From Limosilactobacillus oris (GTDB taxonomy: Bacteria > Bacillota > Bacilli > Lactobacillales > Lactobacillaceae): a stretch of DNA of 64,000 bases. The translations under genes and the position numbers were made by a program. How positions within the stretch are numbered: position 1 is the first letter of the stretch; every line of letters begins with the position of its first letter. The stretch spans positions 186,001-250,000 of the forward strand of contig NZ_CP104398.1 in NCBI RefSeq assembly GCF_025311495.1. The letters are read 5' to 3'. Under the pieces are notes generated by a model. That model was not told the origin of the DNA. It searched no databases and worked only from the letters and a program-made list of their open reading frames with translations. This document shows positions 24,611 through 52,699 of the stretch, one piece after another.

Positions 24611-25489
24611 ATGAATTCAGCATTAGGAAAAGTTGTTTCAGCGGTGATGATTGACGAAAATGACCAGGACTACTTTGTTCAGCCGGACCGGAATGGGCAG
24701 ACTTATCGCTTACCAAAGGCAGAAAGTCCCCAGCAGCTCCATATTGGTGGTCAGGTCCGGGGCTTCGTGTACGAGAACGAAGATCACCAGCTGCAAATGA
24801 CCTGTCAGCACATTCCCACCGTCCAAGTTGACCACTACGATTACGGGACGGTGGTCAGCGTTCGTCGAGATTTAGGGGTCTTTGTAGACATCGGTTTGCC
24901 AAACAAGGATATCGTGGTGTCATTAGATGACCTGCCGGAATTAAAGCACCTCTGGCCCCAACCAGGTGACCGTCTACTGATGGCGCTGCGGGTGGACGAT
25001 AAGGACCGTATCTGGGGCCAGTTAGCGGATGACCAGATTTACCAAACTATCTCAAATGCCCCGTCAAAAAGAGCAATGAACCGGGACGTGATGGCAACCG
25101 TTTACCGCCTGAAGTTGAATGGTACCCACGTGCTTACCGATGACTACCAGCTGGGCTTTATCCACCCCAGTGAGCGTGACCAGGAACCCCGCCTCGGTCA
25201 ACGGGTCAAAGCCCGGGTGATTGGCTTGTCGTCACACGGCAGCCTGAACCTTTCCTTGAAGCCCCGTGCCTACCAGGCGATTGGGGAGGATGCGGCGATG
25301 ATTTTAACCATGTTAAAGCATGACTTAAATCAGCGGTTGCCGTATACGGATAAGACCGACCCGCAGGTAATCCGGCAGGTTTTCGGCATCAGCAAGGGCC
25401 AGTTTAAGCGGGCCGTGGGACACCTGCTGAAGGCTGGCCTGGTTGAAGAAACAAATGGCCAGCTGCTCCTGCTCAAGAAAGAAGAGTAG
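24611..25489 (+). CDS. cvfB: CvfB-like S1 RNA-binding protein
   Basis: A 292-residue protein of the CvfB/YitL family: tandem S1-type OB folds (YGTVVSVRRDLGVFVDIGL at about 77-95 is a clear S1 start) and a C-terminal winged-helix part (FGISKGQFKRAVGHLLKAGLV). CvfB of Staphylococcus aureus binds RNA and affects virulence-gene expression; the role in lactobacilli is unknown. GGAAGATGGGG precedes the ATG. It is followed 5 nt later by the xerD-like gene and probably heads the cvfB-xerD-ribT-scpA-scpB-rluB operon. Confidence 0.88.
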   Translation: MNSALGKVVSAVMIDENDQDYFVQPDRNGQTYRLPKAESPQQLHIGGQVRGFVYENEDHQLQMTCQHIPTVQVDHYDYGTVVSVRRDLGVFVDIGLPNKDIVVSLDDLPELKHLWPQPGDRLLMALRVDDKDRIWGQLADDQIYQTISNAPSKRAMNRDVMATVYRLKLNGTHVLTDDYQLGFIHPSERDQEPRLGQRVKARVIGLSSHGSLNLSLKPRAYQAIGEDAAMILTMLKHDLNQRLPYTDKTDPQVIRQVFGISKGQFKRAVGHLLKAGLVEETNGQLLLLKKEE

Positions 25490-25494
25490 TCGGC

Positions 25495-26382
25495 ATGGAG
25501 GAACTTGTTGATAAATACCTGGCCTACTTAAAGGGGAGTCAGGGGCGATCGGCTAATACGCTCATGAGCTACCGGCGGGACCTGGACCAAGCGGCAGCTT
25601 TCTTACAAGCACAGGGTGTCGGGGAGTGGTCAGCGGTAGATCAATACCAGCTGTTAGCATTAATCGCTGAGCAGAAAAGGCGGGGCCGGTCACCGGCGAC
25701 TATTAACCGCCAGCTATCCGCTCTGCGCCAGTTTTACCGTTACCTGGTCCGTCACCAGCAGCTGCGGTTTAACCCGATGGAGCTGGTCGATAACCAGCAA
25801 TTAACCGAGAAGTTGCCGCCGGAGATTCTGACCGAACCGGAAATCAAGCAGCTGCTAGCGGCCCCCGATCAGGCGCACGCTCTCGGAAAGCGTGACCGGG
25901 CGCTCCTTGCGGTCTTAGCGACCACTGGAATGCGGGTCAGTGAATTAGTCGACCTGCTGGTCACGGATTTGCACCTTGATATTAAGATGATTCGGCTCGG
26001 CAGCGGGGGCCGGCGGGAACGACTAGTACCGATTAGTGACCAGGCAGTTCAGGAGTTAAAACATTACCTATCCGCTGTCCGCCCGTTGCTAGTGGCGGAG
26101 GGCGAACAAGCGGTCTTTGTCAATGCCCATGGCCACCAGTTAACGCGCCAGGGTGTCTGGAAGAATCTTCGCACCCTGGTCCGGCAAGCAGGGATTGAAA
26201 AAGCCGTGACTCCCCGGACACTGCGCTATTCCTTTGCCGTCCACCTCTTGCGGAGCGGGGCTGATGGCCGGCTGATTCAAGAAATGCTTGGTTATAGCGA
26301 GCTACGGGCAATTAAACCCTACTTAAAAATGACAGTTCAGGAATTAAGCGCTGACTACCGCCAGCACCAACCGAAAATTTGA
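25495..26382 (+). CDS. xerD: XerD-like tyrosine recombinase with lost catalytic residues
   Basis: A 295-residue protein with the full XerD architecture: N-terminal SAM-like DNA-binding domain (1-105) and a C-terminal recombinase fold. Of the catalytic set, Arg147 (TTGMRVSE), Arg244 (TPRTLRY) and the nucleophile Tyr276 are present. The beta-hairpin lysine is replaced (GSGGRRER, 169-176), the box II histidine is Arg241, and the third-motif histidine is Tyr267 (LGYSEL). It therefore probably cannot carry out normal strand exchange. Streptococci also carry a XerD-like gene beside scpA/scpB that does not act at dif. It lies in one operon with ribT, scpA, scpB and rluB. The ATG at 25495 gives a normal N-terminus. 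Confidence 0.9.
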   Translation: MEELVDKYLAYLKGSQGRSANTLMSYRRDLDQAAAFLQAQGVGEWSAVDQYQLLALIAEQKRRGRSPATINRQLSALRQFYRYLVRHQQLRFNPMELVDNQQLTEKLPPEILTEPEIKQLLAAPDQAHALGKRDRALLAVLATTGMRVSELVDLLVTDLHLDIKMIRLGSGGRRERLVPISDQAVQELKHYLSAVRPLLVAEGEQAVFVNAHGHQLTRQGVWKNLRTLVRQAGIEKAVTPRTLRYSFAVHLLRSGADGRLIQEMLGYSELRAIKPYLKMTVQELSADYRQHQPKI

Positions 26383-26395
26383 GGAGTGAAGAAGC

Positions 26396-26755
26396 GTGCT
26401 AGTACGGTACCGAAAGGATTATGAAAAAATTGCGATGGGCCTGCTATCCCTGGTCCCCGACCTGCGAAATTATGGCCGGTTTACGGATGAACTGACGGGG
26501 GCGTTAACTGCGGGCTACCCCGTTTACCTGTGGAAGGATGCCGAGGATAACCACTTCATTGCAATCGCGATTGTGGAGGAGGGGACCGATTACCTGCTTT
26601 TACGGCAGCTTTCGTTTACCCCGAGTGAGCGGTCTGGCAAGAATGTCTTTGCCCTTTTGACCGCTCTCCAGGACCAGTATCCGGGGAAACGGTTAATGGG
26701 GACCCTCAAGAACCAGTCGCTAATTACCAATTGGGAGCAGTTTAATGAGCACTAA
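26396..26755 (+). CDS. ribT: RibT-like acetyltransferase-fold protein
   Basis: A 119-residue protein whose first 20 residues (LVRYRKDYEKIAMGLLSLVP) match B. subtilis RibT, the last gene of the riboflavin operon and a GNAT-like protein of unclear function. In B. subtilis ribT lies just upstream of scpA-scpB, and the same holds here, although no riboflavin-synthesis gene is present. The start is GTG at 26396, preceded by GAGGAG. It overlaps scpA by 11 nt, so it is coupled to it. The usual GNAT acetyl-CoA loop is not clearly visible. Confidence 0.82.
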   Translation: MLVRYRKDYEKIAMGLLSLVPDLRNYGRFTDELTGALTAGYPVYLWKDAEDNHFIAIAIVEEGTDYLLLRQLSFTPSERSGKNVFALLTALQDQYPGKRLMGTLKNQSLITNWEQFNEH

Positions 26756-27521
26756 ACCAGTTACGGAACATCCATACCAGCCAACAATTAAAATTGCCGA
26801 TTTCGAGGGCCCACTGGACTTGCTCCTGCACCTTATTCGGGAAAATAAGATGGATATTTATGATATTCAGATTGCCCGCATTACTAGTCAGTACCTAGAT
26901 TTTTTGCACCAGCAACAGGCTCACCAGCTGGAGATTGCTGGTGATTATTTCGTGATGGCGGCGACTTTGATGAATATCAAAAGCCAGTTGCTCTTACCCC
27001 AACCGAGCGAACCGGATGAAGAGGCTGAGGAGCTGCCGGATCCACGGGAAGAGCTGGTTGAGCAATTACTGGAATACCAGCGGTACAAGAAGGCGGCAGA
27101 CCAGTTAAAGGATAAAGAAAATTTGCGCCAGCAGGAGTACACCCGTCCCGCCATGCACGTTCCCCGGGAGCTGATTAGTGCCCACGTGGAACCAGGGGTG
27201 ACGGTCGACCAGCTTCAGGCGGCCTTTGTGGAAGTATTAAAAAAGCACCGGCTAGCTCAGCCGCTGGTTGAAACGGTTGCAACCGAAAAGGTTAGTGTGG
27301 CCGAAAGAATGGCTGCGGTGGTCAAGCAGGTGAAGGCCGGGCCGGTCCAGTTTACCGCCCTGTTTGCTGGTGATCGCAGTCGTGACCAGTTAGTGACGAC
27401 TTTTATTGCGGTCTTGGAATTAAGCAAGGACCAACGGATTGCGGTGCAGCAGGCGGAACTGTTTGGCCCGATTATTTTAGTGAAGGGAACGCGAATTGAT
27501 GACGAAGATACAAGCAAGTAA
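26745..27521 (+). CDS. scpA: Segregation and condensation protein A
   Basis: A 258-residue kleisin that bridges the SMC heads and organises the chromosome with ScpB. The N-terminus IKIADFEGPLDLLLHLIREN is diagnostic, followed by IYDIQIARITSQYLDFL. A central acidic linker (PDEEAEELPDPREELVE) and a C-terminal winged helix (QFTALFAGDRSRDQLVTTFI) complete it. GGGAG inside ribT precedes the ATG. It overlaps scpB by 23 nt. Confidence 0.97.
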   Translation: MSTKPVTEHPYQPTIKIADFEGPLDLLLHLIRENKMDIYDIQIARITSQYLDFLHQQQAHQLEIAGDYFVMAATLMNIKSQLLLPQPSEPDEEAEELPDPREELVEQLLEYQRYKKAADQLKDKENLRQQEYTRPAMHVPRELISAHVEPGVTVDQLQAAFVEVLKKHRLAQPLVETVATEKVSVAERMAAVVKQVKAGPVQFTALFAGDRSRDQLVTTFIAVLELSKDQRIAVQQAELFGPIILVKGTRIDDEDTSK

Positions 27522-28104
27522 CCTGGCCCAAGTGGAGGGCCTGTTATTTATTAGTGGGGATGAGGGTATCACCCTGGGCAATCTTGCTAAAATTACTGGT
27601 TTTATGAAGCCGGCCCTGCGTGAAATGCTGGCTGCTCTCCAAGCCAAGTACGCGCAGGATCAGGACTCGGCACTGATTCTCCTTCAAAGTGCCGATACCT
27701 ACCGCCTGGCGACCAAACAAGCCTTGGCTCCGGTGATCAAGCACTTTTTTGAGGTGCCATTGACGGTGCCGCTTACTACTGCCCTGCTGGAGACCCTCGC
27801 TATCATTGCCTACCGCCAGCCGATTACGCGGTTAGAAATCGATAGCATCCGCGGGGTGCAAAGCTCGGGAGGAATTCAGAAGTTGATGGTACGGGGGCTG
27901 ATTGACACGAAGGGCCGGTTAGATGCCCCTGGGCGGCCGTTTTTGTACATCACGACCGATAACTTCTTGAACTATTTTGGCCTGACCACGCTCGATGAAT
28001 TACCGGCACTGCCAAAACAGGCGGATGCTGATGACGGTGCGCTGAGCGGGGACTTGTTCCTGACGGCGTTGCAGTCACGGGAACGGCATGAGGAGGATGA
28101 GTAA
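27499..28104 (+). CDS. scpB: Segregation and condensation protein B
   Basis: A 201-residue double winged-helix protein that dimerises on ScpA in the SMC complex. Conserved segments are VEGLLFISGDEGITL, LLETLAIIAYRQPITRLEIDSIRGV (in part) and GRPFLYITTDNFLNYFGL. The ATG at 27499 (GAAGGGA upstream) is preferred to a TTG at 27496. Its stop overlaps the rluB ATG by one base. Confidence 0.96.
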   Translation: MTKIQASNLAQVEGLLFISGDEGITLGNLAKITGFMKPALREMLAALQAKYAQDQDSALILLQSADTYRLATKQALAPVIKHFFEVPLTVPLTTALLETLAIIAYRQPITRLEIDSIRGVQSSGGIQKLMVRGLIDTKGRLDAPGRPFLYITTDNFLNYFGLTTLDELPALPKQADADDGALSGDLFLTALQSRERHEEDE

Positions 28105-28820
28105 TGGAACGTTTACAAAAAGTGATGGCGGAGGCCGGCGTGGCGTCCCGGCGGGCGTCGGAAAAGTTGATTGCGACCGGACACGTCCAAGTTAATGGAC
28201 AGACGGTTACCACCTTAGGAACGAAGGTCACCGCTAAGGATAAAATTGAAGTTGACGGGGTCCCGCTTCACCGGGAAAAGCAGGTTTACTATCTGCTGAA
28301 CAAACCGCGGGGCGTGATTTCGAGTGCGCATGACGAAAAGGGCCGCCGGACGGTTGTTGATATCCTCCGGGAGGACGAAATTGAAGAGCGGATCTATCCC
28401 GTTGGCCGTCTGGACTATGACACGACCGGTCTCTTGCTGCTGACTAATGACGGTGCTTTAGCAAACAAGATGATGCACCCTAAGTTCGCGGTTGATAAGA
28501 CCTACGTCGCTAAGGTCAAGGGACTTATCAGTAATGATGACTTGAAGCAATTGCGGACGGGGGTCAAAGTTGATGGCCGGCGAACGAAGCCGGCCAAGAC
28601 CCGGCTGAAGGGCACCGACCGGGAAAAGAAAACGAGTATCGTGCAGCTAACAATCCATGAGGGGCACTACCACCAGGTCAAACGGATGCTGGCGGCAGTC
28701 GGTCACCCGGTGATTAAACTTCACCGTGAGAGTTACGGCTTCCTGAACCTCCAGGGAGTTCAGCCGGGGGACTATCGGGAATTGCGCCCTGAAGAAGTCA
28801 AACGGTTGAACCGCTTGTAG
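28104..28820 (+). CDS. rluB: 23S rRNA pseudouridine synthase RluB
   Basis: A 238-residue RsuA-family pseudouridine synthase. An S4 RNA-binding domain (LQKVMAEAGVASRRASEKLI) precedes the catalytic domain with GRLDYDTTGLLLLTNDG, whose Asp is the catalytic residue, and HEGHYHQVKRML. The family makes a pseudouridine in 23S rRNA near the peptidyl-transferase centre. TAATG coupling to scpB keeps the scpA-scpB-rluB order common in Bacillota. Confidence 0.94.
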   Translation: MERLQKVMAEAGVASRRASEKLIATGHVQVNGQTVTTLGTKVTAKDKIEVDGVPLHREKQVYYLLNKPRGVISSAHDEKGRRTVVDILREDEIEERIYPVGRLDYDTTGLLLLTNDGALANKMMHPKFAVDKTYVAKVKGLISNDDLKQLRTGVKVDGRRTKPAKTRLKGTDREKKTSIVQLTIHEGHYHQVKRMLAAVGHPVIKLHRESYGFLNLQGVQPGDYRELRPEEVKRLNRL

Positions 28821-38565: not shown

Positions 38566-39393
38566 TTAGAGGTCGGCGTTGATCAAAAGCCGTTGGTAGT
38601 AGAGCAGTGAGGCCGGATCAAGGTGGAGGGCGTCCTCAAGCTGTTGGTCACTGTCCCGGCGGTGTTCGGCCAGGTAGAGCAGGATGTAGCTTTGGTGCAG
38701 GTACTTGGGGGCGAGGCTGAAACCCAGGTATTCCTCGTCCTGGTGGAGGAACTTATGCAGGGCGGGGTTACTCAGCCGGGGATTCGTGGGGTTGAACCGC
38801 TGCTTGAGGAAGAGGTCGGGCGAGTGCTGTAGCCGCTGCCGGGGAGCGAGATAGTCCAGCAACTGGCGACGAAAGCGCTGCTCAGCGGGGGTGGCCAGTG
38901 GTAGCTGACCGAAGACCTGGTAGAACCCCGGTTGGAGAAATTCACCGACCGTGAAGCCATACTTACTCAGGAGCAGGGTGAGCCGGGTGTAGTAGTGCAA
39001 GTGCTCATCCGCTAACAACTGGTCAAGCTTTGCTAACCACTTGCTAGCAACACGCTGGTTAGGAGCCACCGCCTGCCCGTGCAGGGTAAGGGTGGGGTAG
39101 TCGCTGATCAGTTGGTGGGTGAAGAGGTAGCGAAAATAGCGGTTCAGCTGTGAAAGAATTTTGTTGTAAGTCGTCATGGTGATTTGCTTGTCGTCCCGGA
39201 GGTAGTTAAGGTAGGCGCGGACATCCGTTTCGGTTAGGTTGTCGAGTGTTGGTTGCTGGGCAAATAGGGGACGGTTCGCGCGCAAGTAGTTAAAGAGGTT
39301 AGTAAGGCTGGTGTCGTAGGTTTTGATGGTCAGCGGGGAAAGCTCCTGCTGGTCAAGGAACCGGCGGAAATTTTGCTGGTAGGGGTAATCCAT
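38566..39393 (-). CDS. Degenerate tyrosine recombinase/integrase-like protein
   Basis: A 275-residue protein that begins like XerD/integrase: a SAM-like N-terminal domain (LTIKTYDTSLTNLFNYL, then VRAYLNYLRDD, MTTYNKILSQLNRYFRYLF). In the catalytic half the box I arginine is Thr148 (YGFTVGEFL), the box II His and Arg are Lys230 and His233 (APKYLHQSY). Only a possible His257 and Tyr266 remain. It should be inactive as a recombinase. It is transcribed against both neighbours, between the TPR gene and cca. The start ATG at 39391-39393 has only a weak GTGAG upstream. Function unknown; a DNA-binding role is plausible. Confidence 0.78.
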   Translation of the reverse strand: MDYPYQQNFRRFLDQQELSPLTIKTYDTSLTNLFNYLRANRPLFAQQPTLDNLTETDVRAYLNYLRDDKQITMTTYNKILSQLNRYFRYLFTHQLISDYPTLTLHGQAVAPNQRVASKWLAKLDQLLADEHLHYYTRLTLLLSKYGFTVGEFLQPGFYQVFGQLPLATPAEQRFRRQLLDYLAPRQRLQHSPDLFLKQRFNPTNPRLSNPALHKFLHQDEEYLGFSLAPKYLHQSYILLYLAEHRRDSDQQLEDALHLDPASLLYYQRLLINADL

Positions 39394-52552: not shown

Positions 52553-52555
52553 GGT

Positions 52556-52596
52556 AAAACCAGTAAAACTTGGCGATAAAAGTTTTACTGGTTTTT
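52556..52596 (+). terminator. Intrinsic terminator after topA
   Basis: AAAACCAGTAAAACTT (52556-52571) pairs perfectly with AAGTTTTACTGGTTTT (52580-52595), with T after it. Confidence 0.9.
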
Positions 52597-52608
52597 ACTT
52601 TGAAAGAA

Positions 52609-52662
52609 TTGAAAGCGCTTCGTAATTCTGCTATTGTGCAAGGGAAAGGGTTTGTATATACT
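52609..52662 (+). promoter_or_regulatory. Promoter of aldose epimerase gene with cre-like site
   Basis: TTGTGC (52634-52639), 17 nt, TATACT (52657-52662) form a good promoter. Just upstream, TTGAAAGCGCTTCGTA (52609-52624) has the left half and AAGCGCTT core of a CcpA operator but departs from consensus at the right end (13 of 16). The cre call is tentative. Confidence 0.55.
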
Positions 52663-52699
52663 AAGTGTTAAACGTTTATCAATGAAAGGGAGAAACACG

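Follow-up and report, generated by a model that had tools for sequence, protein, structure and literature searches.

The window, which is the whole 64,000-nt stretch of the Limosilactobacillus oris genome analyzed here (the genome is a single contig of 2,007,883 bp), contains a XerD-like gene, called xerD* below, in a row of genes running in the same direction (Table 1). The preliminary description of this sequence had stressed that the gene is full length and packed with ribT, scpA, scpB, and rluB. The gene order was confirmed. However, the order cvfB-xerD-ribT-scpA-scpB-rluB was also found in members of the genus with intact XerCD, for instance G192, and is ancestral. The adjacency of xerD to scpAB is therefore no sign of a new function when taken alone, and operon position was rejected as an argument for function. 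Elsewhere in the window, between a TPR gene and cca, a 275-aa protein (38566-39393, minus strand) matches PF02899, the SAM-like N-terminal domain of Xer-type integrases, with 38.1 bits; no catalytic domain was recognized in it.

TABLE 1 Features in the window. Codon coordinates were derived from the xerD* ORF start. The gene names cvfB, ribT, scpB, and rluB are presumed by us; scpB and rluB were also so named in the preliminary description.
Feature	Position	Strand	Basis or comment
cvfB-like gene, directly 5′ of xerD*	24611..25489	+	ORF; neighbor conserved in relatives
xerD*, 295 aa	25495..26382	+	Open ORF; XerD-like; R147, R244, and Y276 retained; Lys/His/His replaced by G171, R241, and Y267
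Codon 171 (Gly)	26005..26007	+	Faces catalytic Lys172 of E. coli XerD
Codon 241 (Arg)	26215..26217	+	Faces box II His244 of E. coli XerD
Codon 267 (Tyr)	26293..26295	+	Faces His270 of E. coli XerD
Codon 276 (Tyr), nucleophile position, retained	26320..26322	+	Alignment
ribT	26396..26755	+	ORF; neighbor in relatives
scpA	26745..27521	+	ORF; PF02616 match to the locus
scpB	27496..28104	+	ORF; neighbor in relatives
rluB	28104..28820	+	ORF; neighbor in relatives
xerC-less gap between topA and galM, 147 bp	52553..52699		xerC sits here in three XerC-bearing relatives of the genus

Residues 8 to 284 of XerD* aligned to E. coli XerD (1a0p) with an E value of 9.7e-43. The alignment placed R147, G171, R241, R244, Y267, and Y276 opposite R148, K172, H244, R247, H270, and Y279, respectively, which we take to be the catalytic residues of the E. 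coli protein. The catalytic set of XerD* reads RGRRYY, so the R-K-H-R-H/W-Y pattern is not matched. The retained Tyr276, Arg147, and Arg244 and the changes in the GSGGRRER loop, at Arg241, and at Tyr267, all pointed out previously, were borne out by the ORF, the coordinates, and this alignment, which puts the altered residues at the catalytic positions. It also refines the earlier account of the loop, in that Gly171 within GSGGRRER is the position opposite the catalytic Lys. The residue loss suggests that XerD* no longer cleaves DNA, although a missing box II His is not in itself proof of inactivity. XerD* scored 284.4 bits (E value of 9.4e-85) with TIGR02225, the XerD model of NCBIfam, which is below the cut-off of 329.6, and on PRK02436, presumably the model of the streptococcal-type protein, it scored 48 bits (cut-off of 178). 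An AlphaFold2 model made from a 28-row alignment had a pLDDT of 88.3 and a pTM of 0.61. The nearest named relative found was L. oris DSM 4864, 99% identical at the XerD* protein, and a contig scan for distant named relatives gave five loci, four from Limosilactobacillus and one distant cyanobacterial locus.

The preliminary description had left dimer resolution to another Xer, to be sought together with dif in the whole genome. The search found XerS (C1:284130-285185) with 470.9 bits compared to a cut-off of 267, in agreement with that idea. No gene scored above the XerC model cut-off, a strict one passed by only 2 of 14 control genomes, and the top scorer was XerD* itself. xerC is also missing from the topA-galM gap, where it lies in G192, G155, and G166. 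No recognizable dif was found at ≤3 mismatches, and searches near xerS with streptococcal-arm patterns found no difSL. Among the 27 regions inspected, difSL-like palindromes centered on AAAACTATAATTTT were found upstream of xerS only in G164 and G116. In the L. oris XerS (L017), LGQ stands where the third-motif His is expected.

In a survey of 50 genomes of the genus, a XerD* match (E ≤ 1e-12) was found in 47 and XerS in 39. Among the 39 genomes with XerS, XerD was matched in 37, all of which lack the box II His in this protein; the other two, G163 and G190, have contig breaks within the operon. A second match of XerC grade (E value of 1.2e-39 or lower) was present in eight genomes, all of them without XerS and all with a XerD that reads RKHRHY. 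In G130, G164, G186, and G169, a second match was present but weak (E values of about 1e-13 to 6e-16). Degenerate XerD with no XerS found was the case in G169 (75% complete) and G187 (86% complete), and G171 had neither a XerD match nor XerS. His241 was missing in all 39 degenerate sequences (the 37 from XerS genomes plus G169 and G187) compared to its presence in all 8 intact ones, so the residue loss seen in L. oris is more than chance. The replacements were Q, R, D, E, and A in 31, 3, 3, 1, and 1 sequences, respectively. Arg244, the Tyr, Arg147, the Lys, and the third-motif His were retained in 39, 33, 30, 11, and 6 of the 39 sequences, respectively, and the XerD of G005 retains five of the six catalytic residues. 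At the position of the nucleophile Tyr, no residue aligned in G189, G165, G160, G164, and G158, and G162 has Leu. In-match stops were absent in 36 of the 37 XerS genomes with a XerD match; G158 has two. In a quick cvfB-plus-ribT tree of 46 genus genomes, from which G158 was excluded, 32 degenerate genomes formed one supported group, and a single origin of all 38 degenerate genomes on the tree was not rejected (p-AU of 0.24). Two XerS genomes, G130 (L101) and G164 (L100), still have a degenerate xerC between topA and galM, which accounts for their weak second match.

Full dif sites at ≤3 mismatches were found in 6 of 8 XerCD genomes of the genus and in 0 of 39 XerS genomes. G155 has a dif with one mismatch more, and G173, a genome 85% complete, gave none. 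When the XerD arm was searched together with the center in an exploratory scan, 60 matches were obtained compared to 30 for the reversed control, some of them beside xerS in several XerS genomes; the half-site motif was chosen after viewing matches in the same genomes, and many scanned regions were picked for known matches. What clusters around xerS is a solitary XerD half-site, ATATTATGTMAACT, without the XerC arm, for which the adjoining sequence gave a mean of 6.8 of 16 matches compared to 12 to 16 for nine dif sites. The core 12-mer is the XerD arm of dif in XerCD species such as G192. With the fixed exact pattern WTATTATGTMAACT, there were 79 matches in the 50 genomes compared to 3 for the reversed pattern. 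One of the 79 is the dif of G192, and the other 78 are in 29 XerS genomes; the exact site is absent in 10 of the 39 XerS genomes.

Several trends were seen in these matches. First, they lie near xerS. Fifty-eight of the 78 were on the xerS contig and 20 were elsewhere, mostly in fragmented assemblies, and of the 58, 55 were within 60 kb of xerS and 43 within 20 kb. In genomes of one to three contigs with xerS-linked sites (G000, G045, G179, G182, and G186), 16 of 16 sites were within 60 kb, 4 of which overlap the start of a 215-aa ORF (see below). G180, which is one contig, has its sole exact site ∼300 kb from xerS, and no exact half-sites were found in G130, G152, and G177 (one to three contigs). 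With the xerS region taken as the terminus, the XerD half-sites are concentrated at the terminus. A change in GC skew marks the terminus in G192, where it coincides with dif, and a less sharp one is seen in G045 around xerS, the one genome in which the skew clearly supports the xerS region as terminus; in the L. oris genome, the skew only drops toward zero. Second, the sites are polar. Thirty-nine of 46 face away from xerS, a count that excludes the single G180 match and the 11 sites over the start of the 215-aa ORF (9 seen directly, those of G175 and G181 by position only). In 20 xerS regions searched at ≤1 mismatch, 29 of 34 sites were polar and 32 of 34 were intergenic, compared to 16% intergenic bases; this count includes one start-overlapping site (G182) and omits one true site (G183). 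Third, sites are found even where the XerD* lacks the Tyr, as in G162, which has four exact sites no more than 8 kb away from xerS.

The L. oris genome has five sites (≤2 mismatches) within 6 kb of xerS, two of them exact and none inside the window; the four on the left of xerS are on the minus strand and the one on the right is on the plus strand. No further sites were found elsewhere in the surrounding 160 kb or in an 80-kb control at 1.26 to 1.34 Mb. When the letters of the exact core were permuted 200 times, at most one permuted motif gave a count as high as the observed one, and this held for every one of the 16 XerD* regions with a core site; because the sites and sequences share descent, this result overstates the evidence. 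At one mismatch, 14 of 20 regions had ≤1 of 300 permutations as high, and G193, G005, G130, and G164 were unremarkable; at two mismatches, the excess over permuted motifs was weak in many regions.

Core sites were also counted by class in regions of 14 to 80 kb. Exactly one core site, dif, was found in seven of eight XerCD regions and in three of three regions with both XerCD and XerS; the other-genus regions of these two classes were centered on a known match, so the informative point is that there is no second site. In XerS genomes without xerD, no core site was found in the 20 kb around xerS (0 of 4). Two or more core sites were found in 15 of 20 XerD* regions, which is not an unbiased rate because several of these regions were chosen for known matches and others for a decayed XerD. 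G189 has one core site, and no core site was found in the regions of G130, G164, G005, and G152. When the start-overlapping site, present in ten regions, was excluded, 11 of the 20 regions still held two or more. A wider pattern, WTATTATGTNAACT, gave 23 matches in 28 other genomes of the family compared to 14 for the control, most genomes having one or none. In the XerS genomes without xerD, it was found once in G078, on a contig other than that of xerS, and once in G086, ∼24 kb from xerS and with G at N. The half-sites are thus missing beside xerS where xerD is absent, which means that they go with XerD and not with XerS, even where the usual cleavage is impossible (G162). The clustered, polarized half-sites around xerS are the strongest support for reading XerD* as a terminus factor, which would need such sites. 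Two further observations concern dif: G155 (L259), an XerCD genome, has two extra core half-sites 6 to 10 kb from dif and is the sole comparison region with more than one, and in all three XerCD-plus-XerS genomes examined, G062, G119, and G049 (L263 to L268), dif lies ∼0.5 to 0.7 kb upstream of xerS.

Near xerS and outside the window, a 215-aa ORF (L219, C1:282196-282843, minus strand) encodes a Xer-like recombinase with the catalytic domain only. One half-site lies over its start, in L. oris the exact site at 282835, and another lies 14 to 17 bp past its stop. The half-sites, or some of them, could serve another recombinase, such as this one or its distant relatives, and XerD* would do something else. 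The ORF is 89 to 93% identical in the nine other genus regions in which it occurs, and of its distant relatives (27 to 31%) in the G165, G162, G077, G193, and G005 regions, those in G193 and G005 adjoin a site. Among the regions compared, it is confined to XerD* regions; it was not found in 15 comparison regions. However, the identity of the core to the XerD arm of dif argues against this explanation, as do half-sites next to genes that look unrelated by eye, HAD-like ones among them, and the sites in the G104, G189, and G152 regions, in which the ORF had no match at 1e-5 (in G152, the sites differ from the core at one position). We consider it unlikely. Coding constraint may explain why the site over the start of this recombinase ORF is conserved.

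Outside the genus, XerS (E ≤ 1e-60) was found in 35 of 145 genomes of the family. In all 30 of those that have two Xer matches, the best match has the full XerD motif, so catalytic decay tracks the loss of XerC and not the gain of XerS; the explanation that the gain of XerS alone relaxed XerD was rejected. In G047, a single Xer match was found and the contig ends within the operon region, whereas four XerS genomes, G031, G078, G086, and G116, gave no match to XerC or XerD at 1e-25. In G078, G116, and G031, xerD is deleted between cvfB and ribT and scpAB is retained, which means that XerD beside scpAB is dispensable in these lineages. These genomes bear on another explanation, in which XerD* would not be an SMC factor and would instead assist XerS or FtsK in dimer resolution as an architectural partner. 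The position of xerS at the center of the array fits such a role, but XerS is found without XerD and without adjoining core sites in G078, G116, G031, and G086, and a partnership of this kind is quite unlikely. Apart from this, G086 (99% complete) has no ScpA match, and G034 and G131, which are not among the XerS genomes and have no XerC/XerD match at 1e-25, have scpAB without xerD.

Selection on xerD was estimated as dN/dS (Nei-Gojobori) in 28 pairs. Ten degenerate pairs, four of which share G045, had a dS of 0.05 to 1; for these, the ratio was 0.034 to 0.122 for xerD and 0.012 to 0.050 for cvfB, a range that leaves out pairs whose dS exceeded 1, was saturated, or was 0.005. The intact pair in the same dS range, G157/G159, had a ratio of 0.048. 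Degenerate XerD is thus under purifying selection, with weaker constraint than its neighbor cvfB, and a neutral relic is unlikely. The G193/G169 pair had a ratio of 0.30 at dS of 0.005, which carries little information. The idea of a decaying relic, whose function was lost with XerC and dif and which persists through translational coupling in the operon, would account for the faster evolution of xerD than of cvfB (dN of 0.065 compared to 0.027 in G176/G177; dN/dS of 0.21 to 0.22 in the near-saturated divergent pairs G130/G005 and G165/G160), for the stops in G158, for the empty or Leu-bearing Tyr position in six genomes, and for the deletion of xerD in XerS genomes of other genera. It is nonetheless disfavored by the ratios in the 10 pairs, by the 36 of 37 matches without a stop, and by the half-sites retained around xerS, and we regard it as very unlikely.

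Conservation was examined in 28 sequences (22 degenerate and 6 intact) out of the 47 from the genus, with the most decayed ones excluded. The invariant residues include N21, T22, Y26, D29, T69, R72, L77, R78, R218, Q219, W222, and R244. Several of these residues contact DNA in XerD. In 32 degenerate sequences, excluding the seven most decayed, the Lys loop and the segment preceding the Tyr were variable, and the box II His was mostly changed to Gln (27 of 32). Residual recombinase activity of XerD*, slow or conditional, at the half-sites or together with XerS, is very improbable: Tyr, Arg147, and Arg244 are kept in most or all degenerate sequences, but His241 is gone in every one, the Tyr-less G162 has sites, and the sites have no second arm.

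The reading we prefer, and hold to be moderately probable, is that XerD* is a non-recombining XerD that would still bind DNA at the half-sites and probably unloads or positions SMC-ScpAB at the terminus. The larger proposal, which seems to us evenly poised, is a natural separation of function in which XerS resolves dimers and XerD has become a non-cutting terminus factor, with a polar half-site array for unloading SMC-ScpAB. From the sequences, we infer the order of the evolutionary steps, the binding by XerD*, and its action on SMC-ScpAB as follows. In the ancestor of this Limosilactobacillus group, XerS would have taken over dimer resolution. XerC and dif would then have been lost, and XerD would have dropped the box II His, plus the Lys and the third-motif His in this lineage. 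XerD* may bind the solitary half-sites, (A)TATTATGTMAACTA, which are repeated around xerS and mostly face outward on both sides. On either flank, the 3′ end of most sites would be the first part reached by SMC-ScpAB coming from the origin and, given the outward orientation, the complex would encounter mostly one face of bound XerD*. Points against the preferred reading include the dispensability of XerD in some lineages with scpAB (G078, G116, and G031), the stops in G158, and the exact sites that are missing in 10 XerS genomes or lie away from xerS. Unloading by B. subtilis XerD is said to be independent of recombination. The likeliest output of XerD* would be SMC-ScpAB unloading or positioning at the terminus, with unloading favored because B. 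subtilis XerD (RipX) is reported, in papers citing Karaboja 2021, to be an SMC unloader at XDS sites. According to the same descriptions, the two systems share a XerD protein, sites at the terminus, and a genome with ScpAB. Unlike XerD*, B. subtilis XerD is described as also resolving dimers with XerC at dif; in L. oris, active-site residues, XerC, and dif have been lost and the half-sites are repeated. SMC unloading and dimer resolution are hard to separate where one XerD does both. Evolution seems to have separated the two roles across much of this genus, since the residues, the partner, and dif are gone and the protein and half-sites remain.

Streptococci carry a divergent XerD-like protein by scpAB, as is the case here. 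The streptococcal and lactococcal XerS-difSL systems, as outlined in the literature, also have XerS and no XerC or dif. XerD* differs from the streptococcal XerD-like family in its scores (XerD model, 284 bits; PRK02436, 48 bits) and in the half-site array described here. A second likeness is to E. coli MatP/matS, in which a protein is described as binding repeated sites at the terminus and keeping the local SMC complex away; MatP acts on MukBEF, unlike what is proposed for XerD*. MatP is unrelated to XerD. According to Kono 2011, L. helveticus has XerS together with XerC and XerD, and no dif was found; in a pneumococcal study, mutants of xerD and of xerS were constructed in strain D39. Judged by titles and abstract openings, with subscription papers largely outside, no literature on a half-site array or a degenerate XerD in lactobacilli was found. 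The resources at hand are the motif with its positions and orientations, the intact XerCD sister species as controls, and the XerS genomes without xerD or adjoining sites. Finally, a perfect inverted repeat, TAAGACTCTTTTGATAAAAGAGTCTTA, was seen 3′ of xerS in near-identical form in G000, G168, and G176.
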